Shown: piece after piece, positions 1,372-19,273 of the stretch
How the letters are laid out: every line of letters starts with the position of its first letter
Numbering within the stretch: position 1 is the first letter of the stretch
Virus record (IMG/VR): IMGVR_UViG_3300035698_031506
Span: 1-25,322 of that record
Length of the DNA: 25,322 nt
Reading direction: 5' to 3' (one strand)
Source: a virus
Position numbers and translations under genes: made by a program
The notes under the pieces: generated by a model
Told to the model about the DNA's origin: nothing
Databases searched by the model: none
Seen by the model: the letters and a program-made list of their open reading frames with translations, nothing else

Positions 1372-1809
1372 ATGGATACAAAATTAAAATCGACAGATCG
1401 CCCCATCGCAATTTATTACACATTACTAAGCGATGTAAATTGGATAAGCAAAGTAAACGATTCTCAATGTACAGTTAATTTGGCTGTGGACTGGAAGTTG
1501 ATAAATACCACAATTGGATCAATAGATTTAAAAGAACCACCTGGAGTACAAACAGCAGCAGGTATTGAATATGTAACCAACATTAATGCAATTTTGCCAG
1601 GGCACAACGAAACAACCCCAGAACAAATTGCGAATATCTCTGGTAGGAAAGTGTTATTAAGGTTCGATTACAGGCAGGGATTAAAGAAAGTAGTAGGCGA
1701 TTCCATGATTGGGCCCCGATTATTTATTGGAATTGATTCCGGCACTTCAACCAAACGAATTTTAAAGGCTTCGTTTAAAAGCACCCACCCCAACCTCTTT
1801 ATAGTATAG
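1372..1809 (+). CDS. Hypothetical phage protein, 145 aa
   Basis: I do not recognise the family. It has no signal peptide or membrane segment. Residues 20-75 read as alternating beta-type sequence (VNWISKVNDSQCTVNLAVDWKL), and the second half has a basic stretch (GRKVLLRFDYRQGLKKV). It lies just upstream of the head protease, so a role as a minor head or joining protein is plausible but only by position. Its stop codon overlaps by one base the GTCCTTT box that precedes the protease gene, so protease and capsid may have their own promoter in addition to read-through from here. Confidence 0.6.
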   Translation: MDTKLKSTDRPIAIYYTLLSDVNWISKVNDSQCTVNLAVDWKLINTTIGSIDLKEPPGVQTAAGIEYVTNINAILPGHNETTPEQIANISGRKVLLRFDYRQGLKKVVGDSMIGPRLFIGIDSGTSTKRILKASFKSTHPNLFIV

Positions 1810-1843
1810 TCCTTTATAAGCCCTGCCCCTTAGAGTAATATTG
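1809..1843 (+). promoter_or_regulatory. Putative phage late promoter (copy A)
   Basis: GTCCTTT at 1809-1815, then 20 nt, then TAATATTG at 1836-1843, which resembles the TAnnTTTG -7 element. The same box with the same 27-nt start-to-start spacing occurs at 14619 and 19239. The ATG at 1849 lies only 5 nt after the -7-like element, so the transcript would be leaderless or nearly so, unless translation starts further in. Confidence 0.5.
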
Positions 1844-1848
1844 TATAT

Positions 1849-2820
1849 ATGATGGATACAGTATTACAGCAACAATGGCAATTTCTACTTATGTCGCAAA
1901 TGCGCAGAGGTATTTGGGCAATGCAGCCCGATAAAGTTATTGCTATGGGCGCCACAGTACAGGAGCTGATGAACCGCGACTGGAACAGTGGAATGCAAAC
2001 TCTTGACCTGGAAACAGAAAAGAGTCGTGCTGAATTTCCGGTTGGCATAAAAACAAAATCGGGAGAAGTACTTGCAGGAAAAAACTCATTAGATCAGGCT
2101 CCCGAAGGAAGTACTGCCGTAATTCCATTAAAAGGAACCATGCTGAAGTATGGAACCTACTGCACGTATGGCACCGAAGAAATTGCCTCGAAATTATTAG
2201 AAGCCGCCATGCACCGAAATATAGCATCGTTGGTATTGGATGTTGATTCGGGCGGAGGAGCTGTTGATGCTGTGGCACCAATGGTACAAGCCATTGCCAA
2301 AACCCGCAATGAAATTGGAAAACCTGTAGTTGCATCTGGTGATTTGTGTGCCAGTGCTGCCGTTTGGGTAGCCGCTGCCTGTACTCGTGTTTTAGCCAAC
2401 AACCTTATTTCTGCCGAGTTTGGAAGTATTGGAGTAATGATGGGGTTCTGGGACGTAGTGCCTTACTGGGAAAAAGAGGGATTTAAACGCCACGACATTT
2501 ATGCTCCAGAATCGGACTGGAAAAACCGTGCATTTAAATTGGCACTGGAAGGAAAGTACGATGAAATTAAACAGGAGGAACTTTCTCCGCTGGCTATTGC
2601 TTTCCAAAATGCAATAAAAGCAACTCGCGGGAACAAACTAAAATTAGATGTTCCGGGATTATTAAACGGGCGAATGTTTTTCGCCAATAACGAAAAAGAC
2701 AATTCACTTAACGCCAAAGAGGTGGGTTTGATTGACGAGGTAGGGACACTGGACGATGCAATCGACCTGAGTCGCGACCTGGCAAAATCAGCCTTTGTGG
2801 ACAAATATGTATCATCATAA
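1849..2820 (+). CDS. S49-family (SppA/ClpP-like) head maturation protease
   Basis: Probably the prohead protease, which cleaves scaffold and capsid precursor during head maturation. The 323-aa protein has the peptidase S49 signature: a beta-strand and glycine loop LVLDVDSGGG (residues 128-137), the nucleophile region GDLCASAAVWVAA with the likely catalytic Ser at 169, then EFGSIGVMMG (190-199) as in SppA proteins. S49 enzymes use a Ser-Lys dyad; I did not pin down the lysine. There is no signal peptide or transmembrane helix, unlike cellular SppA, which fits a phage protease. The capsid gene follows 12 bases downstream. The start could be the ATG at 1849, the ATG at 1852, or an internal Met such as residue 15 if the putative late promoter is real. 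Confidence 0.85.
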   Translation: MMDTVLQQQWQFLLMSQMRRGIWAMQPDKVIAMGATVQELMNRDWNSGMQTLDLETEKSRAEFPVGIKTKSGEVLAGKNSLDQAPEGSTAVIPLKGTMLKYGTYCTYGTEEIASKLLEAAMHRNIASLVLDVDSGGGAVDAVAPMVQAIAKTRNEIGKPVVASGDLCASAAVWVAAACTRVLANNLISAEFGSIGVMMGFWDVVPYWEKEGFKRHDIYAPESDWKNRAFKLALEGKYDEIKQEELSPLAIAFQNAIKATRGNKLKLDVPGLLNGRMFFANNEKDNSLNAKEVGLIDEVGTLDDAIDLSRDLAKSAFVDKYVSS

Positions 2821-2832
2821 AAATTAATTACA

Positions 2833-4302
2833 ATGTTTAAACACGCACTGAGCATGGTTCTTGCTTTTTTAGGAGCTAAAAGTTTTGCCAAAGAAGACGG
2901 CAAATCGGTTATTTCTGAAGAGCAAAAGAAACAGCTTTCCGCTGAATACGGTGAGCAGTTTGTAACCAAGTTCGAGGCTGACTTGGCAAAAAATGAAGCC
3001 ACCGGGGAGGACCCTCTCCGAGCCCGCCTCGATGAGAAGTTTAAAAACTTAGAAGCAATTGTTGAAGGACAAAAAGGCACCTTAGCAACTTTGACTTCTG
3101 AAAACAAGGATCTGAAAGGGAAAGTTGCAAAATTGGAAGACACTCCGGAAGAAGAACCGGCTGCCGAATTTGTTAAAGGAGAAAACGGTAAACAAAAGTT
3201 GAAATTCAACATTAACCGTAATGCTGCCCACAATAAAATTGCTGCCGCATTTTTGGCTGGCGATTCTCGCGTGTTAGCTGCAGGCGAAACTATTGATGTT
3301 GATTCGGTAGTTGGTGAATTTGGCGATTTGGTAAATTATGTGAAGCTGGATATGATCCGGGACTTGTTCCAGGGATTTGAAACTGCACAGCATTTAACCT
3401 GGAAACGTGCCATTACTTCGTGGAAAGCAACCCGTGCTATAATTACTTCGGTAGTTCAGCAGTTTGTACCAAAATTTACTCCACTTGGAGATACCAGTTT
3501 TAAACCACTTACCATTCCGGTACGCAGATTTAAAATTAACGTGCTAATTACACCTGCCGATGTTGAAGATTGGATTTTTGCCATGTACGACGAATCGAAA
3601 GATTTGGACCAGCACCCGGTTACTGTATATATCATCAATAAATTAATTGTGCCCCAAGCGTGGGAAGATTTAGATGATATTGTTGCCAATGGTGTTTATG
3701 AAGAATTGGACTGGAGTACAGTGTCTGAAAACGACCAGGGACAAGATCCAAGTAAATCTATTGATGGATTTATGACTATCCTGAAAAAGGATAAAGCTTT
3801 GGGTGAAGGTAGCCGCCTGATGAACTATATTGCACTTGGGGAAATTACTTCGGCCAACGTTTTGGACAAAGTAAACGTGTTTGTTGATGCAATCGACAAA
3901 AAATACAAGCGCAAAGAAATGCCGATTTATATCGACCCTACTTTGTACCGGATGTACAAACGTGCTTATAAAAATAAGTACGGCGAAGGTTCGAGCAAAG
4001 GCGACGATCCTAGATATGGTGGCGATGTAATTGATTTCAGTCGTAACCGTTTGGTTCCGATGTACAACATGACCGACACGCAAGGTATGTTTACCACACC
4101 AAAAGAAAACTTTATTGGTTTACGCCATAAAAATGAGCCTGGTGCAACCAAGCTTACTTTACGTAAATACGACTACGATATTCACTGTTTAGGAGAATTC
4201 CGCTTAGGTATTGGTTTTGCCATTGCCGGTGGTGTATTCTATTCAATTCCTGACATTGCCGATTCTGGTTCAGGTTCTGGTTCTGCCGGAGGTGGAGTAT
4301 AA
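2833..4302 (+). CDS. Major capsid protein with scaffold-like N-terminal domain
   Basis: The 489-aa product follows the head protease directly, the expected place for the capsid gene. Residues 20-110 are highly charged. A heptad-like stretch at about 60-103 (LDEKFKNLEAIVEGQ...) looks like the coiled-coil delta/scaffold domain that phage proteases remove in HK97-type capsids. The rest (about 125-475) has the mixed alpha/beta character of a capsid subunit, including a long segment of strands (LTIPVRRFKINVLITPADVE). The C-terminus is a Gly/Ser tail (GSGSGSAGGG). The HK97 fold is inferred from context and architecture, not shown directly. A strong hairpin follows the stop codon. Confidence 0.8.
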   Translation: MFKHALSMVLAFLGAKSFAKEDGKSVISEEQKKQLSAEYGEQFVTKFEADLAKNEATGEDPLRARLDEKFKNLEAIVEGQKGTLATLTSENKDLKGKVAKLEDTPEEEPAAEFVKGENGKQKLKFNINRNAAHNKIAAAFLAGDSRVLAAGETIDVDSVVGEFGDLVNYVKLDMIRDLFQGFETAQHLTWKRAITSWKATRAIITSVVQQFVPKFTPLGDTSFKPLTIPVRRFKINVLITPADVEDWIFAMYDESKDLDQHPVTVYIINKLIVPQAWEDLDDIVANGVYEELDWSTVSENDQGQDPSKSIDGFMTILKKDKALGEGSRLMNYIALGEITSANVLDKVNVFVDAIDKKYKRKEMPIYIDPTLYRMYKRAYKNKYGEGSSKGDDPRYGGDVIDFSRNRLVPMYNMTDTQGMFTTPKENFIGLRHKNEPGATKLTLRKYDYDIHCLGEFRLGIGFAIAGGVFYSIPDIADSGSGSGSAGGGV

Positions 4303-4313
4303 AGAACTTACTG

Positions 4314-4339
4314 AGCGAAGCTCCTCCGGGAGCTTTGCT
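4314..4339 (+). terminator. UNCG-capped hairpin after the capsid gene (attenuator or stabiliser)
   Basis: An 11-bp stem pairs 4314-4324 with 4329-4339 (one G-U pair), closed by the tetraloop TCCG on a C-G pair, a UNCG-type loop. Only a weak T-rich run follows. It most likely causes partial termination or protects the 3' end of the capsid mRNA, so that capsid is made in excess over the next gene. Confidence 0.65.
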
Positions 4340-4363
4340 TTATCACTATAAAAATTTACAATT

Positions 4364-4909
4364 ATGACATACGCAGCAGTAAGTGTACCAAAAACCGGAG
4401 CTAATCCCGGGAGACCTAAAGGGAAAAATCCTAATATCATTATTTGTCGTACCGACGAGATTGATAATTTCCCAACGCGCGATGAAAATGGAGTTAAAAA
4501 TGTTGCAGATTCGCTCCTGACTATGTTGGCGGGTAAAAATGCAATTTACATTTATGGCACTACATCGACCATTAAGCGTTATGATACCGGCGAAGGCGAT
4601 CCAGATGCAAAAGGATGGATTCAGAACCTGGAGTTTGAACACCCGGGCGATGAAATTGCCTTGCAGGAATTTTTGGAAAACAACATCAACGAAAATTTGG
4701 TGGCTTTATCGTTCCGCCGTGGTTTTACCGATGTAAAATTACACGGAACAATTGAAGAGCCACTTCAGTTTGAAGTGGAAGAGCAAGATGATAAAGAAGC
4801 ATTAAAAACCACTATTAAATTAAAATCGGTAATGCGTGGACCAAAATCCATGATTTATGTTGGTGCTGCACCAACTCTCGATACCGATTCTGGGGGTATT
4901 GGAGTTTAA
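4364..4909 (+). CDS. Small phage structural protein, tail-tube candidate
   Basis: A 181-aa soluble protein between the capsid gene and a strong terminator. The N-terminal part is hydrophilic (PKTGANPGRPKGKNPN). The C-terminal half has alternating strands (DVKLHGTIEEPLQFEVEEQ, then ALKTTIKLKSV). This strand pattern with a conserved-looking acidic stretch resembles tail-tube or head-decoration proteins, and no better tail-tube candidate is seen near the tape measure gene. The leader ATTTACAATT before the ATG is typical of Bacteroidota starts. Family membership is not recognised with certainty; a head decoration protein is the main alternative. Confidence 0.55.
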   Translation: MTYAAVSVPKTGANPGRPKGKNPNIIICRTDEIDNFPTRDENGVKNVADSLLTMLAGKNAIYIYGTTSTIKRYDTGEGDPDAKGWIQNLEFEHPGDEIALQEFLENNINENLVALSFRRGFTDVKLHGTIEEPLQFEVEEQDDKEALKTTIKLKSVMRGPKSMIYVGAAPTLDTDSGGIGV

Positions 4910-4947
4910 TTCTTTTTTTCTTTCTATAATCTGATTTTATTCGTGTT

Positions 4948-4982
4948 AAAAGGCTTGCCAGAATTTGGCAAGCCTTTTTTTT
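4948..4982 (+). terminator. Strong rho-independent terminator
   Basis: AGGCTTGCCA at 4951-4960 pairs perfectly with 4966-4975, with a 5-nt loop and an eight-T run at 4975-4982. The A residues at 4948-4950 extend the stem. It ends the protease-capsid transcription unit. Confidence 0.92.
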
Positions 4983-4985
4983 GGC

Positions 4986-5030
4986 AACTTACTACTGTCC
5001 TTTAAATGCAATTGCAAATTTCCAAACTTG
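4986..5030 (+). promoter_or_regulatory. Putative phage late promoter (copy B, weaker)
   Basis: AACTTACTACTGTCCTTTAA at 4986-5005 closely matches the box at 14608-14627 (AACTTTCTTCTGTCCTTTTA). The -7-like element is poor (CAAACTTG at 5023-5030) and one base closer than in the other copies. It lies directly after a terminator and before the gene at 5056, where a promoter is needed. Confidence 0.42.
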
Positions 5031-5055
5031 CTGTAAACATTTAAAAATATGAATT

Positions 5056-5949
5056 ATGGCTAAAATTACTGAGAAAAGTACCAAGGCAGATATATATGCT
5101 GCTTACCAAAAATCGTATGGAGAAGTTATAAACCTTGAAGCATCTATTCTTCGGCTTGAAACCGAAAAAGAACAAAGCTCTGAAGCTGCACCGATAAATA
5201 CACAAGCGATTACTATTGTAATTCCATACATTCACGAACTTGCCCAGGCTAATGAATTGCAATTGGCTTTACGCGGATGGGATGAGAATTTTAAGGAAGA
5301 CTTTAAAATTGTTGTAATAGGCGACCGCGAGCCGTGGATGAACGACCTTGTTAATGTAATTGAATGCAAACGCATTGGAAACAATCCACCGCTAGATGTT
5401 GTAAATAAAATGTTGCTGGCCATTGATAGTGACCTGGTAAGCGAAAAGTTTATTTGGGCGAACGATGACCAGTATGTGAATACACCTTGTATGCTTGCCG
5501 ATTTTGAAACCCTTAAATGTGTTGGCAAATTAAGTAAAACGTTTGGAACTACAGTTTTCCAAAAAAATAAAGCGCAAACAGCTGCACTGCTCCGGGAAAA
5601 CAAAATAGGGAATTGGGATTTTTCTTCTCATACACCTATTGTTTACGAAAAAACAAAGCTGCTTGCACTAATCCATAAATTTGGATTAATGAAAAATCCT
5701 TATCTGGTGCAAACGCTTTATTTTAATTACTATTTTCCGAAATATGTGCCTTACAATGTAGAAGCCAGGGAAGCCTTATTAAAAGACAATATTAAAGCCG
5801 GAGTGTACAGAGTTGGTGCAGACCTTAAACTCTTGCAGCAATTAATGCCAGGGAAAAAGATGTTAAGCAATTCGGAAACTGGCTGGTCCGATTCGTTGTC
5901 GAAAATTCTCAACAAACGATTTTCAGAAAAATGCAGATTCGAAAAATAA
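5056..5949 (+). CDS. Stealth-like glycosyltransferase-family protein
   Basis: The 297-aa product has a short N-terminal helical part (residues 1-40), then a nucleotide-sugar transferase-like domain. Features in order: IVIPYIH at 54-60; ANELQLALRGW at 65-75, like the DNELRYSLRS segment of Stealth CR2; VVIGDREPWM at 86-95; an acidic WANDDQY motif at 134-140 matching the NDD metal/sugar-phosphate motif; and SHTPIVYEK at 191-199 in the place of the conserved His-Pro of CR3. Stealth proteins transfer hexose-1-phosphate units onto polysaccharides. Here the gene sits between capsid and terminase, so capsid or tail glycosylation, or modification of a host surface glycan, is possible. The next gene overlaps it by 19 bases. 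Activity is inferred from motifs only. Confidence 0.6.
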   Translation: MAKITEKSTKADIYAAYQKSYGEVINLEASILRLETEKEQSSEAAPINTQAITIVIPYIHELAQANELQLALRGWDENFKEDFKIVVIGDREPWMNDLVNVIECKRIGNNPPLDVVNKMLLAIDSDLVSEKFIWANDDQYVNTPCMLADFETLKCVGKLSKTFGTTVFQKNKAQTAALLRENKIGNWDFSSHTPIVYEKTKLLALIHKFGLMKNPYLVQTLYFNYYFPKYVPYNVEAREALLKDNIKAGVYRVGADLKLLQQLMPGKKMLSNSETGWSDSLSKILNKRFSEKCRFEK

Positions 5950-6722
5950 GCGATAAAACCCAACGGGTAAAAATAGTTACCTGGATGCGCAGCGGGGCAC
6001 CTCTTTCTAAAGGTGTCGCGCTTTATGCATCTCTGCCCCACAATGTGCGATTGCTTACTGCACTTCAGAAAAATGCTGAAGCATACGAAAAAGAGATGGT
6101 GCTAGACATTTGCACAATGTTGGGTATTTCAACCGTAAAATTCAATTCAATTAAAAACCAATACAATGACACCAAGAAAAACGCAGGGACTTCCCGGAAC
6201 CGGAATGTTGGAAGAGAAACTCAGGCAAAAAACAGGAAGGCAAAAAGACCAGGCTCCTTTCGACAAGAGTGGCCGTTCTTATCCAAACCCGAATGTCCAC
6301 CGGAACTCAAGGCACTAGCAGCCGATAAAATAAGTTGTTGGGAACGATACACCGCCAATCATAAAAAACTTTTTGATTGTGGAACTTTGGAGGAGTGCAG
6401 CGAGATTGCACACCAAATTGTAAAAGACTACAAAGAAAATCGGCAAATATTCGAAGAGTTTGAGCATTACCAGAAAAATGGAAAATTACTTGGAGTGCAT
6501 CCGGTATTTAACCACTACAAAACATTTAAGCAGCTCAGAGGCAAAAACGTGATTGCGTTGGTGACTTTGCACGAAAAAACATTACCACACCGTATTTGGC
6601 GAATTAAGAACGAAATTGAGAAAGGCGACAAACCTCATTTACGAGCAAACCGCGAAAAGCGATTGCACGAAGTGGAAGGGGAACTGGCAGAAGTAAAACG
6701 ATTGCTGGGAATGAATGGGTAA
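5931..6722 (+). CDS. Hypothetical protein, 263 aa
   Basis: Overlaps the glycosyltransferase-like gene by 19 bases and the next gene by 8, so it is translationally coupled within a packaging operon. It is a very basic protein. Residues 75-110 (KNQYNDTKKNAG... KNRKAKRPGSF) look disordered and positively charged, and the C-terminal 80 residues are predicted helical with alternating charge (IWRIKNEIEKGDKPHLRANREKRLHEVEGELAEVKRLL). No family is recognised. A nucleic-acid-binding or packaging accessory role would fit the charge and position but is not shown. Confidence 0.65.
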   Translation: MQIRKISDKTQRVKIVTWMRSGAPLSKGVALYASLPHNVRLLTALQKNAEAYEKEMVLDICTMLGISTVKFNSIKNQYNDTKKNAGTSRNRNVGRETQAKNRKAKRPGSFRQEWPFLSKPECPPELKALAADKISCWERYTANHKKLFDCGTLEECSEIAHQIVKDYKENRQIFEEFEHYQKNGKLLGVHPVFNHYKTFKQLRGKNVIALVTLHEKTLPHRIWRIKNEIEKGDKPHLRANREKRLHEVEGELAEVKRLLGMNG

Positions 6723-7317
6723 GTTTTTTGACATAAAAGAAAAGATGGTGCAACCATCGACGAAAGGTGAAGAGGCTGGAATTAAAACTCCGAATAGTAA
6801 TTCAAAGTCGCTGCGCATAAAGTTCGATGAAATGCATGAACGGAAAATAGGAACGCTGAAAATGTTGATGGGAGATCTTCCGGAAGAAAACCAAATGTTC
6901 TTCCTGGAAACTACCAATAGCTTTAATGCTTTCACCTTTATTGTTTATCTGTTAAAACATGCCGGACGCATCGATGAATTATTTATTGCAACCTACTCAA
7001 TAAACCGCCGGATTCTCGACAGTTTAACCAGGCGAATTGTGCAGAACGAAATTGGCAATATCTGCCTTTATATTGCCGATAGCATTAAATACAGGATGCC
7101 AAAAGTAAAGGACCAGCTGAGCACCATGGAAAAGGAACTGGAAAACTTTCAGGTAGAATATGCCTGGACACATAAGAAAGTAATTGCCGCCCGTGTGGGA
7201 GATGACCATTATGTTGTTGAAGGTTCGGGTAACTTTTCGGAGAACACAGCTGAAGAACAATATATTTTTTTGAAATCGAAACGCATTTATGAATTTAAAA
7301 CCGGACATATTAATTGA
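6715..7317 (+). CDS. PLD-motif protein next to the terminase genes
   Basis: A 200-aa protein with one phospholipase-D-type active-site half. H153-x-K155 in AWTHKKVIAARVGDDHYVVEG is followed by GSGNFSENTAEEQY (170-183), the usual HxK...GSxNxS...E pattern of PLD-superfamily nucleases and phosphodiesterases. Residues 75-125 (VYLLKHAGRIDELFIATYSINRRILDSL) correspond to the preceding alpha/beta strand of such domains. The protein carries one HKD motif, so it would need to dimerise to form an active site, as single-motif PLD nucleases such as Nuc do. It overlaps the gene before by 8 bases and the next by 29. A DNA nuclease or phosphodiesterase linked to packaging is likely; lipid hydrolysis is less so because no signal peptide is present. 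Confidence 0.68.
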   Translation: MGKFFDIKEKMVQPSTKGEEAGIKTPNSNSKSLRIKFDEMHERKIGTLKMLMGDLPEENQMFFLETTNSFNAFTFIVYLLKHAGRIDELFIATYSINRRILDSLTRRIVQNEIGNICLYIADSIKYRMPKVKDQLSTMEKELENFQVEYAWTHKKVIAARVGDDHYVVEGSGNFSENTAEEQYIFLKSKRIYEFKTGHIN

Positions 7318-7630
7318 ATGGCCCGACTGGTTTCCGCTTGATAAAGTGGATGAACTGGAGAGTTTGGCAGCCATTGGCTACACACCTGAGAAAATGGCAA
7401 TGTATTTTGATGTGCCGCCTGAATTATTCCTGGACGAAATTGTAAGGGAAGACAGCCAAATACGTTACCACATTGAGAAAGGAATTTTGCAAAACGAAGC
7501 CGATGAAGCAATAGCCACAATGTCGGGAGCAAAAGAAGGTAACGCAACCCAAGCTCAGCGCCTGGATAAAAAACGATACCAGCTGAACTTTCAGCAACTG
7601 AAAGAAGAGATTATTTATGGCAAAGAATAA
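7289..7630 (+). CDS. Helix-turn-helix protein, small terminase candidate
   Basis: A 113-aa protein whose N-terminal part (residues 19-50, VDELESLAAIGYTPEKMAMYFDVPPELF) has the helix-turn-helix pattern seen in small terminase subunits: a glycine before the turn, then a helix ending in an aromatic, then a second helix. The C-terminal helix (ATQAQRLDKKRYQLNFQQLKEE) would suit oligomerisation. It overlaps its neighbours by 29 and 14 bases. Small terminase recognises viral DNA at the packaging site and feeds the large subunit. The assignment rests on this motif and on position two genes before the large terminase; the 207-aa gene at 7617 is the alternative. Confidence 0.55.
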   Translation: MNLKPDILIEWPDWFPLDKVDELESLAAIGYTPEKMAMYFDVPPELFLDEIVREDSQIRYHIEKGILQNEADEAIATMSGAKEGNATQAQRLDKKRYQLNFQQLKEEIIYGKE

Positions 7631-8240
7631 ATTCGATATAAGCCGATACCACGATATTGCCCATTACATTGAGATGGGAAGCACAGGAAATTTTAACGCC
7701 GAAGAATTGGAGTATCTCGATGTTTTGGTTAAAATGAATAACATGCGCCGCCGTTATGGTATGCACAAAACCATGGCATTTTTCAGAAAACCACCTTTCG
7801 AAATTAGTTTATACCGTGCTAAACAAATGTTCGAGGAATCGATTAACCTGTTTTATTCTGATGAAATTATTGAGAAGAAAGCCGCCCGGAACCTCATTGC
7901 TGAAGACCTTGAACAAGCTGCGCAATTGTGCTTAGCTGTGGCGCAATCGCCAAAGGACTTAGAGATTTATGGTGACCTGAAAATGAAAGCGTATAAAGCC
8001 AGGCAATTGGATGTTCCCGATCCAATGGAAATTCCAGAAGAACTGTACAAACGCCCAATAAAAATCTACACACTTACTACAAGGCAAGCCAAACTTCCTG
8101 ACATTAACCGCAACGATTTAGCCAAAGAAATTGATGCACTGCCGGAAAACGAAAGCGATAAAAAACGCTGGAGACAGGAAGCAATGATTGAAGATATTGA
8201 CTTTATAGAAATGATAAATGACCAAACAGAAGACAATTAA
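7617..8240 (+). CDS. Hypothetical terminase-adjacent protein, 207 aa
   Basis: Almost entirely helical by eye and charged, without signal peptide or membrane segment. It overlaps the preceding gene by 14 bases and the large terminase by 23, so it is probably made with the packaging machinery. No family is recognised. An alternative small-terminase role is possible from its position directly upstream of the large subunit. The C-terminal acidic run (IEDIDFIEMINDQTEDN) could be an interaction tail. Confidence 0.62.
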   Translation: MAKNKFDISRYHDIAHYIEMGSTGNFNAEELEYLDVLVKMNNMRRRYGMHKTMAFFRKPPFEISLYRAKQMFEESINLFYSDEIIEKKAARNLIAEDLEQAAQLCLAVAQSPKDLEIYGDLKMKAYKARQLDVPDPMEIPEELYKRPIKIYTLTTRQAKLPDINRNDLAKEIDALPENESDKKRWRQEAMIEDIDFIEMINDQTEDN

Positions 8241-9924
8241 ACTCGATCGTCCCGACGTAGAAGTGCGATATATGAACTGGCTGGCTCAAATTAGTGGACT
8301 AGCTTTGTTTCAGCATTTATACATGATTGTTGGCAGGGGTGGCGCGAAAACCACATCTATTTTAGCTGAACGACTTCAGGAAATGGTTTTCGATATGCCC
8401 GGAGCTCCTGTTGCTTTGGTTGCCGATACTTATTCCAATCTACAGAAAAATGTTTTGCCAACCCTTCAGGAAGGTCTTCGATTGTTAGGATGGGAAGAAG
8501 AAATTCATTATCGCATAGAGAAGCCACCGTTCGACCACTGGAAGGAGAAACCATTTAATATTATTTCGAGTTACAAACACACCATTACTTTTTTTAACGG
8601 ATTTAATCTTACACTTATTTCTCTCGACCGTCCATCGAGCGCTGCAGGTCGTTCTTATGTAGCAATTATTGGAGATGAAGTTAAATTTTTCAAGGAAAGC
8701 AAAATTGCAAAACTCACCAAAGCCATTCGTGGATATAAGGTTAAATACGGTCATTCTCCTTTTTATCGCTCGCAGACATTCACAACCGATATGCCAAATC
8801 CGAATCTAATTGGCGAATACGACTGGATATTGAAGCATAGAAAACGGATGAATCCTAAAATAATTATCCAAATTCTGAAAGTTGCATTTGTTTTAAATGA
8901 CATTAAAAAAGAATATGTTATTGCCAAAGATTCAAAGGATAGGACTTTATTGGCGAATACAAAACGCAAACTCGATCGTTGGGAGGACCGGTGGCGGAAA
9001 GTCCGGAAGAAATCTGTTTTCTTTTGGATAGCCAGCAGTTTTGTAAATGCCGATATCTTGGGAGTGGATTACTTTACTGAAGAGTTCGAAACTGGCCTCG
9101 AAGATGTTCGTGAAGCAATTCTTTCGCTTAAACCATCGTTAACGGCTGGCAATCGATTTTATACAAATTTAGCTGAAAGGCATTTCTACCAGGATGGAGC
9201 TGATTCTTATTGGAGCGAGGAATTTGGTATTCGCGACCAGGAGGATTGTAGGATACTATCGAAGCTTAATAAGTCCAAGGACATAGACATGGGTGTTGAC
9301 TTTGGTAATATGAACTCCATGATAGTTGCACAAGATGGCAAAGGTAAACGTGAGTATAATCTACTGAAGGAGTTCCACACCATCCCTCCAAACTCCATCC
9401 GCGAAATAGCCGATGAATTCCTTGAGTACTTCGAGCCACATGAGCAGAGGACTATCAACCTATACTACGACCGTGCTGGTAATAACTCCAGAGAAGTAGG
9501 ACAAGACCTTGCGGGTAAGCTCAAGAAAGCTATCGAGAAGAACAACAATGGTAAACGTACTGGCTGGAAAGTAATCCTTCGTTCCATCGGACAGGGGAAC
9601 ATCAATTCCAATGTTGAGTATAATTTTATGATTGACCTGTTGTCTGAAGTAAATCCATTGTTGCCTAAAGTCAACATCGACCAATTCAATTGTCGTTGCC
9701 TCAAGTCATCGCTTGAGCTGGCACCAACCAAGATTAGCACACGCCGTGGGCGTACCTTAGTTGAGAAAGACAAAAAGTCCGAACAGCTACCAGCTCACAA
9801 ACTCCCGCTTTTATCAACCAACTTCTCCGACGCATTCAAATACTTAATGTGTCGTAAAAAATGGTTGAAGCTGTCCAAAGGCCACCGTCGCCAAAGCTCC
9901 GGCGAAGTATCTACAACAGGCTAA
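8218..9924 (+). CDS. terL: Large terminase subunit (ATPase plus nuclease)
   Basis: Powers DNA translocation into the prohead and cuts the concatemer. The 568-aa protein has a Walker A motif GRGGAKTT (residues 39-46), a Walker B strand VAIIGDE (148-154, catalytic Glu 154), and RNase H-like nuclease acidic residues D361 (MGVDFGN), D418 (NLYYDRAGNN) and D538 (NFSDAF). The length is normal for the family. From about 9240 codon use shifts: I count eight ATC codons for isoleucine in the last ~225 residues against two in the first ~340, where ATT dominates; TCC and GAG also rise. This marks a recombination joint between the ATPase and nuclease domains. The start at 8218 overlaps the gene before by 23 bases. 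Confidence 0.92.
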   Translation: MTKQKTIKLDRPDVEVRYMNWLAQISGLALFQHLYMIVGRGGAKTTSILAERLQEMVFDMPGAPVALVADTYSNLQKNVLPTLQEGLRLLGWEEEIHYRIEKPPFDHWKEKPFNIISSYKHTITFFNGFNLTLISLDRPSSAAGRSYVAIIGDEVKFFKESKIAKLTKAIRGYKVKYGHSPFYRSQTFTTDMPNPNLIGEYDWILKHRKRMNPKIIIQILKVAFVLNDIKKEYVIAKDSKDRTLLANTKRKLDRWEDRWRKVRKKSVFFWIASSFVNADILGVDYFTEEFETGLEDVREAILSLKPSLTAGNRFYTNLAERHFYQDGADSYWSEEFGIRDQEDCRILSKLNKSKDIDMGVDFGNMNSMIVAQDGKGKREYNLLKEFHTIPPNSIREIADEFLEYFEPHEQRTINLYYDRAGNNSREVGQDLAGKLKKAIEKNNNGKRTGWKVILRSIGQGNINSNVEYNFMIDLLSEVNPLLPKVNIDQFNCRCLKSSLELAPTKISTRRGRTLVEKDKKSEQLPAHKLPLLSTNFSDAFKYLMCRKKWLKLSKGHRRQSSGEVSTTG

Positions 9925-10412: not shown

Positions 10413-10886
10413 ATGACGACAAAAATTGAAGCTGAAAAGCTAAATGGAAAAGGTATGCCGAAAATGGAGGTTAAAAAAACCACCATTGAAAAAGTTACCA
10501 AAGCAACAAAACCAGTTAAAGAACTCACAAAAGAGGACCTACAAAAACAGGTGCAGCAGCTTACTGCAAAACTCCAAGCAGTTCCGCAGGATCTAAATTC
10601 AAGGATCGAGTATTTCAACAATAAAAAAGAGTTGATTCGAAAACTTGGAGGACTGGAAGCCAACACCCAAAATTTACAAACTCATTTAGACGAAATTGCA
10701 GAAGTTGCCGCCTCGAATGATTTCCAAACGGACGAATTTATTTTAACCATTGAGGGAGGCGGAAAGTACAACCGCAAGCAAATTTTTGCATTGCAAAATC
10801 CTGTTTTAATAGGTGAGGTTATTACTTATTTGTTGGGAAAAATGGAAGCAAAAGTTATTGAACTGAAGAAGCAAATTGAAGCTTAG
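10413..10886 (+). CDS. Hypothetical coiled-coil protein, 157 aa
   Basis: The first 40 residues are Lys/Thr-rich and probably disordered (KKTTIEKVTKATKPVKELTKED). Residues 42-58 and 70-98 form heptad-like helices (LQKQVQQLTAKLQ, then KLGGLEANTQNLQTHLDEIAEVA). A compact C-terminal part contains FILTIEGGGKYNRKQIFALQNP. No enzyme motif, signal peptide or membrane segment is seen, and I do not recognise the family. It opens the accessory block between terminase and portal and is followed by a hairpin terminator, so it appears to be its own transcription unit. Confidence 0.65.
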   Translation: MTTKIEAEKLNGKGMPKMEVKKTTIEKVTKATKPVKELTKEDLQKQVQQLTAKLQAVPQDLNSRIEYFNNKKELIRKLGGLEANTQNLQTHLDEIAEVAASNDFQTDEFILTIEGGGKYNRKQIFALQNPVLIGEVITYLLGKMEAKVIELKKQIEA

Positions 10887-11645: not shown

Positions 11646-11707
11646 TTTTGCCAATTCTCCTAACGTCCGAGTTTTACAAAAAGTTTTTACCTTTGGTTCA
11701 AACCAAA
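11646..11707 (+). promoter_or_regulatory. Duplicated promoter/operator, first copy
   Basis: A 62-bp segment repeated at 12466-12527 with four differences. It contains a perfect -7 element TACCTTTG (11688-11695). The last bases of that element begin a 7-bp inverted repeat, TTTGGTT-CA-AACCAAA (11692-11707), which looks like an operator. No standard TTTG is seen at -33, so an activator may be needed. The ATG of the downstream gene is at 11724. Confidence 0.65.
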
Positions 11708-11723
11708 AAAAATCAATCTTACT

Positions 11724-12032
11724 ATGAGTCAAAGATATATCTGGGAAAAGCTGTATGAAGCAGTTTATTGTTTGATTGGAACTTCTTCAATGGCAGTTCG
11801 TATAAGTGCTGCATACGTTACTCTCGCCACCATTAATGAAAATGATATTCCTGAAGAAATAAGAGGACAGTTTAGAGATGTGATGCAATTAGTACGAACT
11901 GCGAAGTCGGATACGGTCGGAGGAAGAATTAAATCTGCAGTAAGAAAAATGTCAAAATCCGAAAGATACGATATGGCTAAAATAATACTTGGAATGTATG
12001 ATATAGTTACCAGAAATATGCCTGTTCACTGA
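11724..12032 (+). CDS. Hypothetical accessory protein, 102 aa
   Basis: I do not recognise this protein. It is helical throughout, with a slightly hydrophobic first half (LYEAVYCLIGTSSMAVRISAAYVTLATI) and a basic second half (GRIKSAVRKMSKSERYDMAKIILGMYD). No clear transmembrane helix or signal peptide is present. It has its own promoter, a copy of which also drives the secreted protein at 12541, so the two are probably expressed together, perhaps from the prophage. That makes it a candidate moron (accessory) gene rather than part of the virion. Confidence 0.6.
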   Translation: MSQRYIWEKLYEAVYCLIGTSSMAVRISAAYVTLATINENDIPEEIRGQFRDVMQLVRTAKSDTVGGRIKSAVRKMSKSERYDMAKIILGMYDIVTRNMPVH

Positions 12033-12465
12033 GCAACCAATGCCCTACAATCCCAAAAATATTACCCCGTATCCGCCAAATAATCAAAAATCAACCAAAA
12101 AATTCCTTATATTGCCGCTATAATAGTTAGTTGATATAGAAATCAACTATACCATAATCCGTCCCTGGATTTTTTGGTACAATCAGGCTATTAAACAGGA
12201 CGAAATAAGAACAAAATAGGCGGTGTGCTTCCCATAAATCTTCATACATATGACCCATGAATTTTTCACACACGGGCTTTGCACACCGCTTTTCTTTGTA
12301 TTTCAAATCACTTTTCCCTATTGCATGTAACGCAAAACAATTGTAAATAGGTTCCCTAGAGTTTCCTGAAGAAAATTAGATATTTAAAATACTGGAGCAT
12401 GAGAATAGTTTCGAATCACGTCCTCCCCACAAAAAGAAAGGCTCTTGAAAAAGGGTCTTTCCCAC
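12033..12465. other. Gene-free stretch between the two accessory genes
   Basis: No credible gene in about 430 bases. It holds a hairpin at 12128-12149 (TAGTTGAT/ATCAACTA) and a larger stem at 12222-12289. The remainder is A+T-rich and shows nothing I can interpret. The low coding density contrasts with the tightly overlapping structural genes. Confidence 0.5.
12222..12289 (+). ncRNA. Nested hairpin element, possible small RNA or terminator
   Basis: GCGGTGTGC pairs perfectly with GCACACCGC to close a 68-nt element. Inside it a CCC/GGG pairing and a TTCAT/ATGAA stem can form. TTTTCTTTG follows, a fair T run. This may be the terminator of a transcript starting upstream or a small structured RNA. 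It lies about 190 bases after the stop codon of the 102-aa gene. Confidence 0.45.
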
Positions 12466-12527
12466 TTTTGCCAATTCTCCTACCGTGCGAACTTTACAAA
12501 AAGTTTTTACCTTTGGTTCAAACCAAA
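12466..12527 (+). promoter_or_regulatory. Duplicated promoter/operator, second copy
   Basis: The second copy of the 62-bp repeat, with TACCTTTG at 12508-12515 and the same TTTGGTT-CA-AACCAAA inverted repeat (12512-12527). The ATG follows at 12541, so the leader is about 20 nt. The only differences from the first copy lie between the upstream block (TTTTGCCAATTCTCC) and the -7 region. Confidence 0.68.
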
Positions 12528-12540
12528 TAATTAACCAAAA

Positions 12541-13101
12541 ATGAAAAATCTCCTACTTGCATTTCTACTATTTTTTACCACTCAAATTTTTGCTCAAACC
12601 TATTCCGAAGTTGTACCAGTTGAAGGAAGAACGGCAATGGAACTTTATATTAAGGCGAGGGAGTGGTTTGCTATTTCTTTTAATTCTGCGAACGATGTTA
12701 TTCAGATGGATGATCCAGCAAATAAAAAACTAATTGGGAAAGGTGTAAAAACAATAAATTACTTCATAGGGGATATTCCTGCTTATATCAATGTGCACTT
12801 TACGTTAGTAGTTGCGTTTAAAGATAGTCGGTATAAACAGGAGATTAAAGCAGATTATTATTCGACTGCCGGTAACGAAAATTACGACACTGACGCGTTG
12901 CAGAGATTAGCAACCGAAGAAGGACTTAAAGACTTCTATGAAAGAATGGGGGTGAAGCCATGGATAATTGGCAAAAAAGTAATTGCCACTACGCTGGAGG
13001 CGAATAAAAAATTAATTATAGATATTGATACTCAACTCAAAGATGTTTTGCAAGATTTAAAACGAGCTATGACAGAAAAAGAACCAGAAGAAAACTGGTA
13101 A
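12541..13101 (+). CDS. Secreted DUF4468-type protein
   Basis: The 186-aa product has a clear signal peptide (MKNLLLAFLLFFTTQIFA, cleavage likely near residue 18). It is followed by the pattern of DUF4468, a TBP-like-fold domain common in Bacteroidota envelope proteins: VVPVEGRTAMELYIKAREW then FNSANDVIQMDD and IGKGVK (residues 24-68). The function of the family is unknown. It is an odd passenger in a phage structural region. With its own duplicated promoter it is best explained as a lysogenic-conversion gene acting in the host envelope or periplasm, for example in surface alteration or superinfection exclusion, but that role is inference. Confidence 0.72.
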   Translation: MKNLLLAFLLFFTTQIFAQTYSEVVPVEGRTAMELYIKAREWFAISFNSANDVIQMDDPANKKLIGKGVKTINYFIGDIPAYINVHFTLVVAFKDSRYKQEIKADYYSTAGNENYDTDALQRLATEEGLKDFYERMGVKPWIIGKKVIATTLEANKKLIIDIDTQLKDVLQDLKRAMTEKEPEENW

Positions 13102-13412: not shown

Positions 13413-13958
13413 ATGAAAATTTTAGAATTTATTTACAACGAAAAATCCATCAGTTTCGATCCGACGGGAAACGATAACGTGATGGTAAATGCTACAGAAA
13501 TGGCAAAAGTTTTTGGAAAAGATTTGTTTCAATTCACTAAAAGTGATGCTACAAAAAAGTTCACTTCAGCATGTTTAAAACCTGCAAATGCAGGTTTATT
13601 AGGCATAAAATTAGAGGAAGATTTAATCATTTCCAAACAAAAATCAGGTACCTGGATGCATCGTATTTTAGCTTTAAAATTTGCTGCATGGTTAGACTCT
13701 GAATTCGAAATTTGGGTTTGGACAAAGATTGATCAAATTATTCTTGGCCATTACCGAGAAGTAAAAGCGGCCATGTACGAGAAGCTTTCTGCAGAAAAAG
13801 CAGTTGATTCAAAACGTGAAGAATTATTGAAAAACAACCCTGCATTTGCTGAATTCCTTGCTTTAGAGGGAAAACTTACCGAAAGCGAAAAGAAACGACA
13901 AAAGGCGATCAAAGCCTCTATGTTCCAATTTAAACTTGACTTTCAAGGAATAAAATAA
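13413..13958 (+). CDS. KilA-N domain protein
   Basis: The 181-aa product matches the KilA-N DNA-binding domain of phages and large DNA viruses. It has MVNATEMAKVFGKDLFQFTKSDATKKF (residues 24-50), a variable loop, then GTWMHRILALKFAAWLDSEFEIWVWTKIDQIIL (79-111), the conserved core with the W...A..A.WL pattern. The C-terminal 65 residues are a charged helix (EKAVDSKREELLKNNPAFAEFLALEGKLTESEKKRQKA). KilA-N proteins bind DNA and are often phage regulators or antirepressors. It is transcribed away from the ribbon-helix-helix gene and ends at a strong terminator, so it forms a separate regulatory unit in the accessory block. Confidence 0.8.
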   Translation: MKILEFIYNEKSISFDPTGNDNVMVNATEMAKVFGKDLFQFTKSDATKKFTSACLKPANAGLLGIKLEEDLIISKQKSGTWMHRILALKFAAWLDSEFEIWVWTKIDQIILGHYREVKAAMYEKLSAEKAVDSKREELLKNNPAFAEFLALEGKLTESEKKRQKAIKASMFQFKLDFQGIK

Positions 13959-14013: not shown

Positions 14014-14025
14014 TAAAATAAAATC

Positions 14026-14522: not shown

Positions 14523-14535
14523 CAAACAGCAACCA

Positions 14536-14576: not shown

Positions 14577-14607
14577 AAACCTCCTGCCAACTGAGACTGC
14601 CACTCCC

Positions 14608-14653
14608 AACTTTCTTCTGTCCTTTTACCTCACACGCTCCCTTTCTACATTAG
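14608..14653 (+). promoter_or_regulatory. Putative phage late promoter (copy C)
   Basis: AACTTTCTTCTGTCCTTTTA at 14608-14627 with GTCCTTT at 14619-14625, then 20 nt, then TACATTAG (14646-14653), one mismatch from TAnnTTTG. It stands between a terminator and the portal operon, where a promoter is needed. The ATG at 14658 is 4 nt after the -7-like element. Confidence 0.58.
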
Positions 14654-14657
14654 CAGT

Positions 14658-16300: not shown

Positions 16301-16303
16301 ATT

Positions 16304-16615
16304 ATGAATTTTGGACAAGCAATTGAAGCCCTAAAACAGGGCAAACGAGTACAACGAACAGGATGGAATGGAGAGGGATTATTTGTTTTTATGCAAGTTC
16401 CTTCAACCATACAAAGAGAGATTGTACCTAAAATGCAATCATTACCTCAATTGGTAAAGGATGAATTTGAAAGAAGGTTTAATGACCCAAACGAGCAAAT
16501 TGATGCTATTTATTATGTCGACCAACTTGCAATGGTGGGTCCTAGTAATGGAATAACAGGATGGTCTCCTTCTGTGCCGGACTGTATGGCTGATGATTGG
16601 GTAATTTTAGACTAA
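16304..16615 (+). CDS. Tad2-like (DUF2829) anti-Thoeris protein
   Basis: The 103-aa product has the DUF2829/Tad2 pattern. The N-terminus MNFGQAIEALKQGKRVQRTGWNGEGLFVFMQ is characteristic (FGxAIxxLKxGKxVxRxGWNG), and the C-terminus is WSPSVPDCMADDWVILD (residues 87-103), matching the family's W.PS..D..A.DW ending. The middle part (residues 33-75) is an insertion also seen in longer family members. Phage Tad2 proteins are molecular sponges that sequester the cyclic ADP-ribose signal made by Thoeris ThsB and so block this host defence. The gene begins four bases after the portal stop, in the structural operon. Whether this copy binds Thoeris signals or another nucleotide is not shown. Confidence 0.78.
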   Translation: MNFGQAIEALKQGKRVQRTGWNGEGLFVFMQVPSTIQREIVPKMQSLPQLVKDEFERRFNDPNEQIDAIYYVDQLAMVGPSNGITGWSPSVPDCMADDWVILD

Positions 16616-16618
16616 TAC

Positions 16619-16646
16619 TTTGAACTCTGAACTTCAAACTCTGAAC
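16619..16646 (+). repeat. Two tandem 14-bp units
   Basis: TTTGAACTCTGAAC (16619-16632) is followed directly by TTCAAACTCTGAAC (16633-16646), with two differences. It lies in the short gap before the gene at 16657. It could be a slipped duplication or a leader element; no function can be given. Confidence 0.75.
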
Positions 16647-16656
16647 GATTAGAACC

Positions 16657-17655
16657 ATGATTTTCAACAAAAACAATAAAGGAAACGAAGAGCTGCGCAC
16701 CTTAACAGGCAGTTATTACAAAAGCAACGATTTTAATAAAATTGAAGTAAAAGTTACACTCGCTTCAGAAGAATTGATTTCGATAATTGGGAACGAAATT
16801 TTTGTAAAGGCACTGGTGCATTACACGGGAGTAAATTACCAGGTGGAAGAACCAAGCCCGGCACTGGCTTTATTAGACCAGCTGGTGCAGTATATGCAAT
16901 TGCCAATTTCATTTTTAGCTACGCTCTGGCATTACCAGGGGAATGATATTAGCCATGAAGACAGTGGCCGGAAAATGAAAATTGATGCTACCAGTGAAAA
17001 AATGGCCTGGGAATGGATGTACGATAGGGATGATGCAGCAGCACTGCGAAATTACCAACGAGCTCTTGATCGACTAATTAAATTCTTAAACGATAATGTT
17101 GGTTCATTCCCCGAGTGGGCAGATTCTGATGCACGAAAAGAAACACTCTCGTTATTTATAAACACCTGGGAACATTTTAACCGATTGTTTGCCATCGATA
17201 ATTCACCAGCGTTTTTCCTTCGGCTGGCACCAATAATGAAGGAAATAGAGCGCAAGCACATAAAACCCATACTTGGACTGGAAAAGTTTACTGAGCTGAA
17301 AACATTGATTAAAGCGGGAGAAGAACTCACCGCAGCGAACCAGGAATGGTACGATACTGTTTGCGACCCCATTCCTCTACTTACCATGGCAAAAGCTGTA
17401 AAACGATTTAGTGTTACAGTATTGCCCGAAGGAGTTGTTCAGCAATTTTTCTCGCAGTTCCAGCAAGCCAAAGCCAACCAGCCGGTAACAATGGACCAAG
17501 TAAAATATGTTTCTAAAGATTTGTATGCTGACGGCATTGAGGTGATTAATGAATTGAAAAAATACTGGAGTGCTTTAAATGTTGACGAAAGCGACCAAAG
17601 TATTGATGACCTGATTCCAGGCGGAGAAACTACCGATAAATTTATGAGTTTATGA
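16657..17655 (+). CDS. DUF6712-like phage head/adaptor protein, 332 aa
   Basis: Begins MIFNKNNKGNEELRTLTGSYYKSNDFNKIEVKVTLASEELISIIGNEIF, a pattern I associate with the DUF6712 family of Bacteroidota phages: an N-terminal helical part containing the ...LI.IIG.E.. segment. The remainder is helical with aromatic-rich stretches (RNYQRALDRLIKFLNDNVGSFPEWADSD). It follows the portal and Tad2-like genes, the usual place for head-tail adaptor or connector proteins. Its stop overlaps the next start by four bases. Family membership is from memory of sequence patterns; a connector role is inferred from position. Confidence 0.5.
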   Translation: MIFNKNNKGNEELRTLTGSYYKSNDFNKIEVKVTLASEELISIIGNEIFVKALVHYTGVNYQVEEPSPALALLDQLVQYMQLPISFLATLWHYQGNDISHEDSGRKMKIDATSEKMAWEWMYDRDDAAALRNYQRALDRLIKFLNDNVGSFPEWADSDARKETLSLFINTWEHFNRLFAIDNSPAFFLRLAPIMKEIERKHIKPILGLEKFTELKTLIKAGEELTAANQEWYDTVCDPIPLLTMAKAVKRFSVTVLPEGVVQQFFSQFQQAKANQPVTMDQVKYVSKDLYADGIEVINELKKYWSALNVDESDQSIDDLIPGGETTDKFMSL

Positions 17656-18578
17656 ATACCATTGAAATTCCAGAAAAAAACATTAAAGCCACTTACCCCG
17701 GGAGTTGGGAAGAAATGAGCGATAAACAATTTGCCTGCGTTGTACAAAACTGGCTAAAGTTATACGACGGCAAATTAAGTGTGTCGGAATTTTACCTGAT
17801 AGTACTTTACAATTTTCTGGGATTAAAACGTTCTCCGCTTCAAAATTTTAAAGACCGTAGATTAAGTGCCGAACAGCTGGAAGAAAAATTCAGCAATGTT
17901 TGGCAACTTACCGAAACCCTGCATTGGCTTTTAGAAGTTCCGGAAGATTCGAAAAGTGGCAAACCACGTTTAACTTATACCGATACCACCAACCACCTGC
18001 CGGTAATTATTAACGATGGCGAAGTAAAACTAATTGGACTGGCAAGCGGAATGATTGACATTACTTTTGGGGAATACCGCAGGGCAATTGCTCATTTCTC
18101 GTCGTTTAATAAAGACCGAAAAGACATTTACCTCGACCGCTTGATTGCTACACTCTATCTTCCCGAGCGCAGCGACTATGATACCATAAAAAACACACCA
18201 GAATTTAATGGGCGCCAACGCGAAAATTTTAACCAGAACCTTACCGAACATTATGCCGAATTGGTAAATGGAATTCCGTTTTGGCAGAAATACGCCATAT
18301 TCCTCTGGTTTTTTAATTGCGATATTTATTTAAAGTCGGGCGAGCTGGAACTGGATGGAAACCTTATTTCTTTTGAACCGCTATTTAATACTCCAGCCAC
18401 CGAGACAGATGTAGAAACCCTGGACGAAAACGACCTGGGAATTACGCAGCTGCTGTATGGCATTGCCGAAAGTAAATTGTTTGGCAGCATTGCCGAAGTT
18501 GACAATACCGGCTACATTGATATTTTAACTGCACTGCTTTACTGGAAACAGCAAGCCGATAAATTAAAATCAGTATGA
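17652..18578 (+). CDS. Hypothetical structural-operon protein, 308 aa
   Basis: Not recognised. It is an acidic protein with aromatic-rich helical parts (SDKQFACVVQNWLKLYDGKLSVSEFYLIVLYNFLG near residues 23-57; WQKYAIFLWFFNCDIYL near 218-234) and an acidic C-terminal region (ETDVETLDENDLGITQLLYGIAE). It overlaps its neighbours by four bases on each side. Position between adaptor-like and tail-joining genes would fit a tail-assembly or head-tail joining role. There is no visible slippery site that would mark a tail chaperone frameshift. Confidence 0.6.
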   Translation: MNTIEIPEKNIKATYPGSWEEMSDKQFACVVQNWLKLYDGKLSVSEFYLIVLYNFLGLKRSPLQNFKDRRLSAEQLEEKFSNVWQLTETLHWLLEVPEDSKSGKPRLTYTDTTNHLPVIINDGEVKLIGLASGMIDITFGEYRRAIAHFSSFNKDRKDIYLDRLIATLYLPERSDYDTIKNTPEFNGRQRENFNQNLTEHYAELVNGIPFWQKYAIFLWFFNCDIYLKSGELELDGNLISFEPLFNTPATETDVETLDENDLGITQLLYGIAESKLFGSIAEVDNTGYIDILTALLYWKQQADKLKSV

Positions 18579-19111
18579 TACGAATTACAGACTTTAATAC
18601 CCTGCTTGCACAAATGCTAGCAGATATACAGAACCCGGAATTAGTAGAAGAGATTTGGGGAAGCGAACAAATGGAAGCCCGATGGACAACCGAAGAAATT
18701 GAAGCGGGGGTAGAACCAACCGAAGTAGCAGGATTGGTTTTGGTGGCCAACGAAAAACACCTGGTACGCAAACTGAACGATAAAGTGGGAATACAGATTG
18801 CCGTTACCATACCAAGTGCCGACCCCGAAGGAGCGAACGAAGATGCTGTGGCCGAAAACAATATTTTTTGGATGTTTGTGTTGGAGAAAACAGATCCCGG
18901 AAGTTTATCGAACCAGGACGAGCTGGACCATTACCAAAAAATACAAGATGTTGTTACTGCTGTAAAACTTTGGCTGCGTTACCAGAAGCTTGAGGGCAAT
19001 GAATTTCTGGAGTACCTGAATTTAAATAGCATACACACCGACCCCGAATACCAAATTGGCGGATGGAATGGCTGGAGTATTAATGCGAATTTTGATACTG
19101 ATGGGTATTGA
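18575..19111 (+). CDS. Probable tail completion/joining protein, 178 aa
   Basis: The size, position and C-terminal part (YLNLNSIHTDPEYQIGGWNGWSINANFDTDGY) fit small head-tail joining or tail terminator proteins, which often end in a Gly-Trp-rich strand. There is no signal peptide. It starts within the stop codon of the preceding gene (ATGA). It ends at 19111, exactly where a REP-like hairpin begins. The family is not certain. Confidence 0.55.
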   Translation: MIRITDFNTLLAQMLADIQNPELVEEIWGSEQMEARWTTEEIEAGVEPTEVAGLVLVANEKHLVRKLNDKVGIQIAVTIPSADPEGANEDAVAENNIFWMFVLEKTDPGSLSNQDELDHYQKIQDVVTAVKLWLRYQKLEGNEFLEYLNLNSIHTDPEYQIGGWNGWSINANFDTDGY

Positions 19112-19142
19112 CAGCCCCCTCTGACTCCCCCGAGGGGGAGAA
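19111..19142 (+). repeat. REP-like intergenic hairpin, first
   Basis: ACAGCCCCCTCTGACTCCCC and the following CGAGGGGGAGAA contain a stem CTCCCCC/GGGGGAG (19125-19131 with 19134-19140). Similar 'CCCCCTCT(A/G)ACTCCCCCGAGGGGG' sequences recur between genes in Bacteroidota chromosomes. It abuts the stop codon of the gene ending at 19111. Confidence 0.6.
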
Positions 19143-19206
19143 CAAGAAAAGAATAAAGATAGAATGCGGAAGGAAATCCCAATCCGTTAAAGTCGAATCA
19201 TTCGAA

Positions 19207-19238
19207 AAAGCCACAGCCTGTTACCTGTGGCTTTCTTT
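19207..19238 (+). terminator. Rho-independent terminator
   Basis: AAAGCCACAG at 19207-19216 pairs perfectly with CTGTGGCTTT at 19225-19234, with an 8-nt loop, followed by CTTTG. The T tract is interrupted but long. It closes the portal operon. Confidence 0.82.
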
Positions 19239-19273
19239 GTCCTTTTAACCGCCGTACCACCTAATTATATTAG
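19229..19273 (+). promoter_or_regulatory. Putative phage late promoter (copy D)
   Basis: GTCCTTT at 19239-19245, preceded by CTTTCTTT, then 20 nt and TATATTAG at 19266-19273. It starts within the tail of a terminator and lies upstream of the tail operon. The downstream ATG that would be leaderless belongs to a 26-codon leader frame (19282), with the main gene start 73 bases further. Confidence 0.56.

Follow-up and report, generated by a model that had tools for sequence, protein, structure and literature searches.

Conserved GTCCTTT boxes coupled to host-type -7 elements as likely late promoters of tailed Bacteroidota phages

Results

GTCCTTT boxes precede the structural operons of a tailed phage

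The stretch of DNA analysed here, referred to as the window, comprises 25,322 nt of an IMG/VR virus contig that derives from a tailed phage and contains genes for an S49-type head protease, a capsid protein, packaging proteins, a portal protein and a tape-measure protein, with the capsid and terminase genes assigned by synteny with annotated relatives. Upstream of these modules lie a gene for a 169-residue protein (785..1294, + strand), considered below as a candidate late-promoter activator, and a small open reading frame of unknown function (1372..1809, + strand; 145 residues), which is followed by the first of four GTCCTTT boxes. A first-pass annotation had placed such boxes at 1809, 4997, 14619 and 19239, and all four were confirmed on the + strand. 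Box A (1809..1815), whose first G doubles as the final base of the TAG stop codon of the small open reading frame, lies 5' of the head-maturation protease/capsid operon and is separated by 20 nt (N20) from the -7 element TAATATTG (1836..1843, + strand), with an ATG 5 nt further on (1849). It is retained at the orthologous position in two sets of related loci (L008-L018 and L061-L132). Box B (4997..5003) is located past a terminator hairpin and 5' of the packaging operon (5056-9924), box C (14619..14625) 5' of a small pre-portal gene and the portal operon, and box D (19239..19245) 5' of the tail operon (19355-25322), directly after another terminator hairpin. Copies C and D are followed, again at N20, by the -7 elements TACATTAG (14646..14653, + strand) and TATATTAG (19266..19273, + strand), respectively. 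In copy C, an ATG follows 4 nt after the -7 element (14658), a layout that is kept in relatives, whereas copy D has a leader of ~80 nt.

Several further claims of the first-pass annotation could be assessed at this level. The 27-nt register between box and -7 element held for copies A, C and D, while copy B has only a degenerate element (AAACTTGC, 5024..5031, + strand) in the same N20 register. For two genes, the -7 element had been reported to lie 4-5 nt before the ATG, which was confirmed for A and C. Three of the four copies had been described as directly following a terminator; we find hairpins directly before B and D, and that of C lies ~50 nt further away. These hairpins were read by eye from the sequence, and a terminator scan lists only the one before D. 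An extended sequence common to B and C, AACTTnCTnCTGTCCTTT, failed as a consensus, as it is not conserved in relatives, in which the region 5' of the box shows only a weak T-bias.

The accessory region between the packaging and portal operons offered observations of its own. Two of its genes (11724-12032 and 12541-13101) have near-identical leaders of ~60 nt (11651-11716 and 12474-12532, identified by eye), which carry a host-type TACCTTTG element (GCCAATTCTCCTA...TTTACAAAAAGTTTTTACCTTTGGTTCAAACCAAA) and may represent a duplicated promoter cassette. The same region encodes a KilA-N domain protein (13413-13958) and includes, in a non-coding stretch, an inverted repeat recognized by eye (GCGGTGTGC ... 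GCACACCGC, 12220-12292).

Box, spacing and placement are conserved in related phages

The frequency of the bare heptamer in the window is not significant. Two additional copies (7107 and 7952, - strand) lie in antisense orientation within genes, giving six occurrences against a mean of 4.6 expected. The 3.1 kb of intergenic DNA, read on the + strand, should contain ~0.2 copies and contains three that are wholly intergenic, the fourth + strand copy being box A, which begins at the final base of a stop codon. A scan of the window for sigma-70 consensus promoters yielded matches at shuffle level only, and this consensus is not relevant to Bacteroidota. Since the bare count is within chance, we drew significance from related phages, and it is their conservation of the box and its placement, rather than its count in the window, that confirms it as real.

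Relatives were collected by searches with the portal and protease proteins, which returned 16 viral and 8 bacterial loci, some of them on the same contigs. In the orthologous gaps of these relatives, whose portal or protease is 44-88% identical, the arrangement GTCCTTT-N20-TAnnTT(n)G is retained. Lack of conservation of the box and its spacing in related phages would have refuted the original proposal; this refutation failed, as both are conserved. Scanning 13 virus records in their entirety, we identified 26 exact GTCCTTT-N20-TAnnTT sites, compared to 0 for a reversed control pattern, and within each of these records all exact sites are placed on the same strand. The pattern occurs in phages of Bacteroides, Porphyromonas, Cellulophaga, Polaribacter, Sphingobacterium, Prolixibacteraceae and others, mostly before structural operons. 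Bacteroides phage BT-TP2, Cellulophaga phage Ingeline, two Porphyromonas gingivalis phages and a gut phage record each have 4-5 sense boxes, all of them with a -7 element; in BT-TP2, boxes are located at 10592, 17978, 25812 and 32317. As a side observation, a prophage in a Prolixibacteraceae genome (L019) ranks among the closest prophage relatives (portal 74% identical), pointing to a possible host family for the phage in the window.

In ~1.47 Mb of DNA pooled from related phages and prophage contigs, unique GTCCTTT sites are found 170 times in sense and 55 times in antisense orientation. A TAnnTTTG element (at least 5/6 matches) is present at N20 in 73.5% of the sense and 0% of the antisense sites; at N19, it is found in 4% of the sense sites, and at other distances its frequency is near 0. 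Conversely, an unbiased scan of the position 27 nt 5' of -7-like octamers recovered GTCCTTT 123 times and the runner-up heptamer 9 times, making GTCCTTT the sole enriched 7-mer at that position. One-base variants of the box remained at background, with the exception of those in the last base. The pooled loci were picked for the similarity of their proteins, and many of the contigs are closely related; although sites were made unique based on the 55 nt surrounding them, relatedness is not fully removed.

The first-pass annotation had assumed that the box replaces the TTTG motif at -33 of host promoters. This view needs correction, because the TTT of the box coincides with the TTT of the host -33 element. 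Directly after this TTT, G is under-represented in the pooled sites of relatives (9%).

Promoter B has an additional feature in its spacer, a palindrome (5007..5016, + strand) that reads TGCAATTGCA in the window and recurs in the B promoters of relatives, in many of them (L105-L131) as TTGCAATTGCAA. It mostly lies 9 nt or 18 nt from the start of the box, overlapping the -7 element in the 18-nt group, and 18 of the 99 copies of GCAATTGC in the 1.47 Mb fall within B promoters. It is conceivable that a second regulator acts on the packaging operon through this palindrome as its operator.

The GTCCTTT pattern is not a host element. In 60 Bacteroidota genomes of one class, the full pattern had 22 matches, as opposed to 68 for the reversed control. 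In eight genomes that carry prophages, the matches concentrate in the prophage contigs (e.g. 5/6 in G019).

The box changes in concert in Flavobacterium phages

Flavobacterium phages with diverged homologs of the candidate activator use variant boxes, which are repeated across their late operons. Phage laban6-1 contains a ATGTCACAA box (GTCACAA) five times at N20 in the corresponding gaps, and phages 6H and 1H contain a ATGTCTTAA box (GTCTTAA), mostly at N19, in both cases together with a -7 element. Additional contigs whose regulators share 56-57% identity with those of laban and 6H show GTCACAC at N20 and GTCYTAA at N19. Thus, the box has changed in concert across the late promoters of a single phage, as would be predicted for promoters that share one trans-acting reader. 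A phylogeny of structural proteins groups laban and 6H as sister phages and places the GTCCTTT-bearing Ingeline next to this pair, so that GTCCTTT looks like the ancestral form.

The candidate proteins also differ in their basic C-terminal helix, which reads IKKxDYRNR in the main GTCCTTT group and LRRLFYREK or IRRLLDRGQ in the two variant groups, with a single Arg common to all box types. These differences could reflect a change in specificity, but descent alone would give rise to them as well.

A small protein family accompanies the box

The 785-1294 protein belongs to a family of 160-200 residues that is encoded just 5' of the first late promoter in 13/13 contigs, with a small open reading frame likewise situated between its gene and the first box in relatives. 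In a gene comparison seeded with the open reading frames (at least 70 aa) of two phages, which may have missed small genes, this family was found in 12/12 complete phages, covering all box types, and it was the sole such gene outside the structural and packaging modules; a primase and an integrase were each present in 11/12. With an alignment of this family alone as a query, 72 loci were found, and among the 61 new contigs obtained in this way 59 contain the exact GTCCTTT heptamer and the other two GTCCTTG. Clustered boxes are absent from phages without the protein, as seen for the unrelated Bacteroidota phages B40-8, crAss001, Molly and Hankyphage. No match for the protein was obtained in MT835559, a gut phage record that does have boxes, although this record may be incomplete.

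AlphaFold models of the family are confident (pLDDT 86-88), but comparisons of the protein with PHROGs, Pfam, NCBIfam, PDB sequences and PDB folds produced no match that would identify it, and neither Pfam nor PDB fold searches detected a recognizable DNA-binding domain. Its C-terminal segment is basic, including the helix with the invariant Arg, and one family member showed a weak match in its C-terminal half to a 'positive control sigma-like factor' (E=0.013). A tblastn search against an annotated phage collection was uninformative, as the sequences are too diverged. A fold search of viral models returned one good match, gp39 of Polaribacter phage Leef. This phage, which is assigned to another family, was discovered only after the fold match to have six intergenic GTCCTTT boxes at its late operons, just two of which are associated with a well-scoring -7 element.

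On this basis, the 785-1294 protein is a strong candidate for the activator, and likely the correct one, although this identity is inferred in the absence of binding data. Protein and box always reside in one syntenic late module, and their constant company might simply reflect common ancestry. Recombination that would clearly have separated the two was not found, and the regulator tree was poorly resolved and gave no decisive discordance.

Existing annotations touch this family at two points. PHROG 21888, a group of unknown function, matches the Flavobacterium versions only (L133 32730-33290 and L136 31125-31658, both - strand) and could be re-annotated if binding were shown. The homolog in BT-TP2, gp8 (L134 5501-5989), was labelled 'transcriptional regulator' by its depositors on an unstated basis; the laban6-1 version is gp042.

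A subset of the promoters may produce leaderless transcripts

When the interval between the -7 octamer and the first ATG was tallied, a spacing of 4-5 nt stood out as a sharp mode (31/151 sites, promoter C among them). With the -7 element centred at -7, an ATG at this distance would lie at, or within 1-2 bases of, position +1. The alignment of the gaps shows that the start of the protein encoded downstream of promoter C (M-x-[LV]-Y-x-A-I) is conserved in relatives. Other promoters, including D, have ordinary leaders. The earlier suggestion of leaderless late mRNAs is therefore plausible for a subset of sites (31/151); it remains an inference without data on transcription start sites. In B. theta, leaderless mRNAs are rare, and 5' UTRs of less than 10 nt account for only about 3.7% (PMC7366714).

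Discussion

Our analysis establishes the existence of the box, its spacing, placement and conservation, its absence as a host element, its co-occurrence with a phage protein and its concerted change in Flavobacterium phages. We consider it likely (with a probability of roughly 0.75) that the boxes mark late promoters throughout a large group of tailed Bacteroidota phages, and that these promoters are read by a phage activator, in this reading the 785-1294 protein family, in conjunction with a host sigma factor, while noting that neither transcript nor binding data are available. The first-pass idea of a late activator or the appropriation of a sigma factor is thus supported, with the identity of the activator, the timing and the start sites being inferred. 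The promoter architecture, GTCCTTT - 20 nt - TAnnTTTG, combines a -7 element of the type recognized by the host primary sigma factor (σABfr) with a box occupying the -33 site. In this model, the 785-1294 protein would accumulate and then most likely bind to the box at -33, where it would hold host RNA polymerase with σABfr at promoters that are weak without it, in the manner of MotA in T4, thereby turning on the head, packaging, portal and tail operons together. Binding of the box by this protein, activation, late timing, the start sites, the contact with sigma and the leaderless start at a subset of promoters are all inferred. A bolder reading, which we consider less likely than not, holds that the system is an ancient, Bacteroidota-wide switch of tailed phages that relies on a protein with a fold unseen in the PDB to take over the host primary sigma factor at a near-invariant heptamer, underwent a concerted change of specificity in at least one lineage and generates leaderless mRNAs at a subset of its promoters.

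Among the alternatives, the most serious one is that the box does belong to late promoters but is recognized by some other phage factor, such as a LuxR-like or HTH protein from the early region or an alternative sigma factor, and that the 785-1294 protein has a different role. LuxR-like regulators are indeed annotated in laban6-1, Ingeline and Leef, and a DNA-binding fold has not been proven for the 785-1294 family. However, no second gene outside the structural and packaging modules is shared by 12/12 phages (within the limits of open reading frames of at least 70 aa from two seed phages), and the position of the 785-1294 gene directly 5' of the first late promoter as well as the helix differences by box type speak against this explanation, which we regard as unlikely. 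Even less probable is a scenario without any activator, in which the primary sigma factor itself recognizes GTCCTTT as a strong form of the host -33 element. In favour of this view, the box and the host TTTG motif have their TTT in register, at a host-like distance to the -7 element. However, GTCC is invariant, whereas the G of TTTG is unselected (9%), the combination is rarer than the reversed control in the 60 host genomes, and the GTCACAA and GTCTTAA boxes of the Flavobacterium phages lack the TTT yet keep the -7 element.

The remaining two possibilities can be all but dismissed. A host regulator, for instance an ECF sigma factor or a stress regulator, could in principle drive the box promoters, given that a second promoter motif is known in B. 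theta, which also encodes numerous ECF sigma factors (PMC7366714). The counts in the 60 host genomes (22 vs 68 for the reversed control) led us to reject a host regulon: the pattern falls below its control and is absent as a class, and, moreover, the identity of the box tracks the phage clade and the -7 element matches that of primary-sigma promoters. It is similarly hard to maintain that the box is a DNA signal unrelated to promoters, such as a packaging site, a terminator companion or a replication element. Several copies do lie directly after terminators, but the rigid N20 register to a sigma -7 element, the strand bias and the placement before gene starts argue against this notion.

A search of the open-access literature turned up no account of a system for late transcription in Bacteroidota phages and nothing relevant on GTCCTTT or the late promoters of Bacteroides phages. 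If confirmed, the late-promoter model would provide the first described late-gene switch of these phages and equip Bacteroidota with an inducible promoter pair of phage origin. With the box and its spacing, late operons can be called from sequence alone in a major group of gut, oral and marine phages. Our results also name one testable activator, with GTCACAA and GTCTTAA as natural specificity variants for swap experiments, and the box promoters offer a test of leaderless translation in a phylum in which short 5' UTRs are rare.

Comparison with known systems

Small positive regulators encoded by phages are also known from the PBSX-type 'positive control sigma-like factor' family (NCBIfam PRK06930), but the only match, obtained for a single member of the candidate family, reached 15.2 bits and thus stayed far below the family cut-off of 136. 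In phage Mu, one small phage activator, C, likewise controls several late operons with host polymerase (PMC4461284). Mu C binds a dyad, and its site is placed upstream, whereas the element described here, at -33, spans only seven bases and is not palindromic. Neither Pfam nor PHROG searches link the candidate to the Mor/C proteins.

σABfr promoters (TTTG / TAnnTTTG; PMC7366714) share the same -7 element, TAnnTTTG, and the same distance to the -33 position with the box promoters. Their -33 motif is not reproduced, however, because TTT is present but G is uncommon at the fourth position (9%), and the TTT is itself lost in the boxes of Flavobacterium phages. The box promoters further differ by the invariant GTCC before the TTT, by their rigid spacing and by the absence of the motif as a class from host genomes.

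The closest parallel is provided by the middle promoters of T4, which depend on MotA/AsiA (PMC2988021). The MotA box, (a/t)(a/t)(a/t)TGCTTtA, tolerates deviations (PMC2988021), whereas GTCCTTT is unrelated in sequence and near-invariant, and the candidate shows no significant match to MotA or any other protein in PDB sequence or fold searches. The genes downstream of the box are structural, and by inference late, while those controlled by MotA are middle genes. The organization of the promoters is nevertheless alike: a box at about -30 replaces the -35 contact while the host -10 element is kept (73.5% of sense sites), and both systems use a phage box for the -35/-33 contact together with a host -10/-7 element, fixed spacing, a dedicated phage regulon and the host RNA polymerase. 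A phage activator box combined with a host sigma factor is thus of a known kind; new are the box, its Bacteroidota-wide spread and the candidate activator family.
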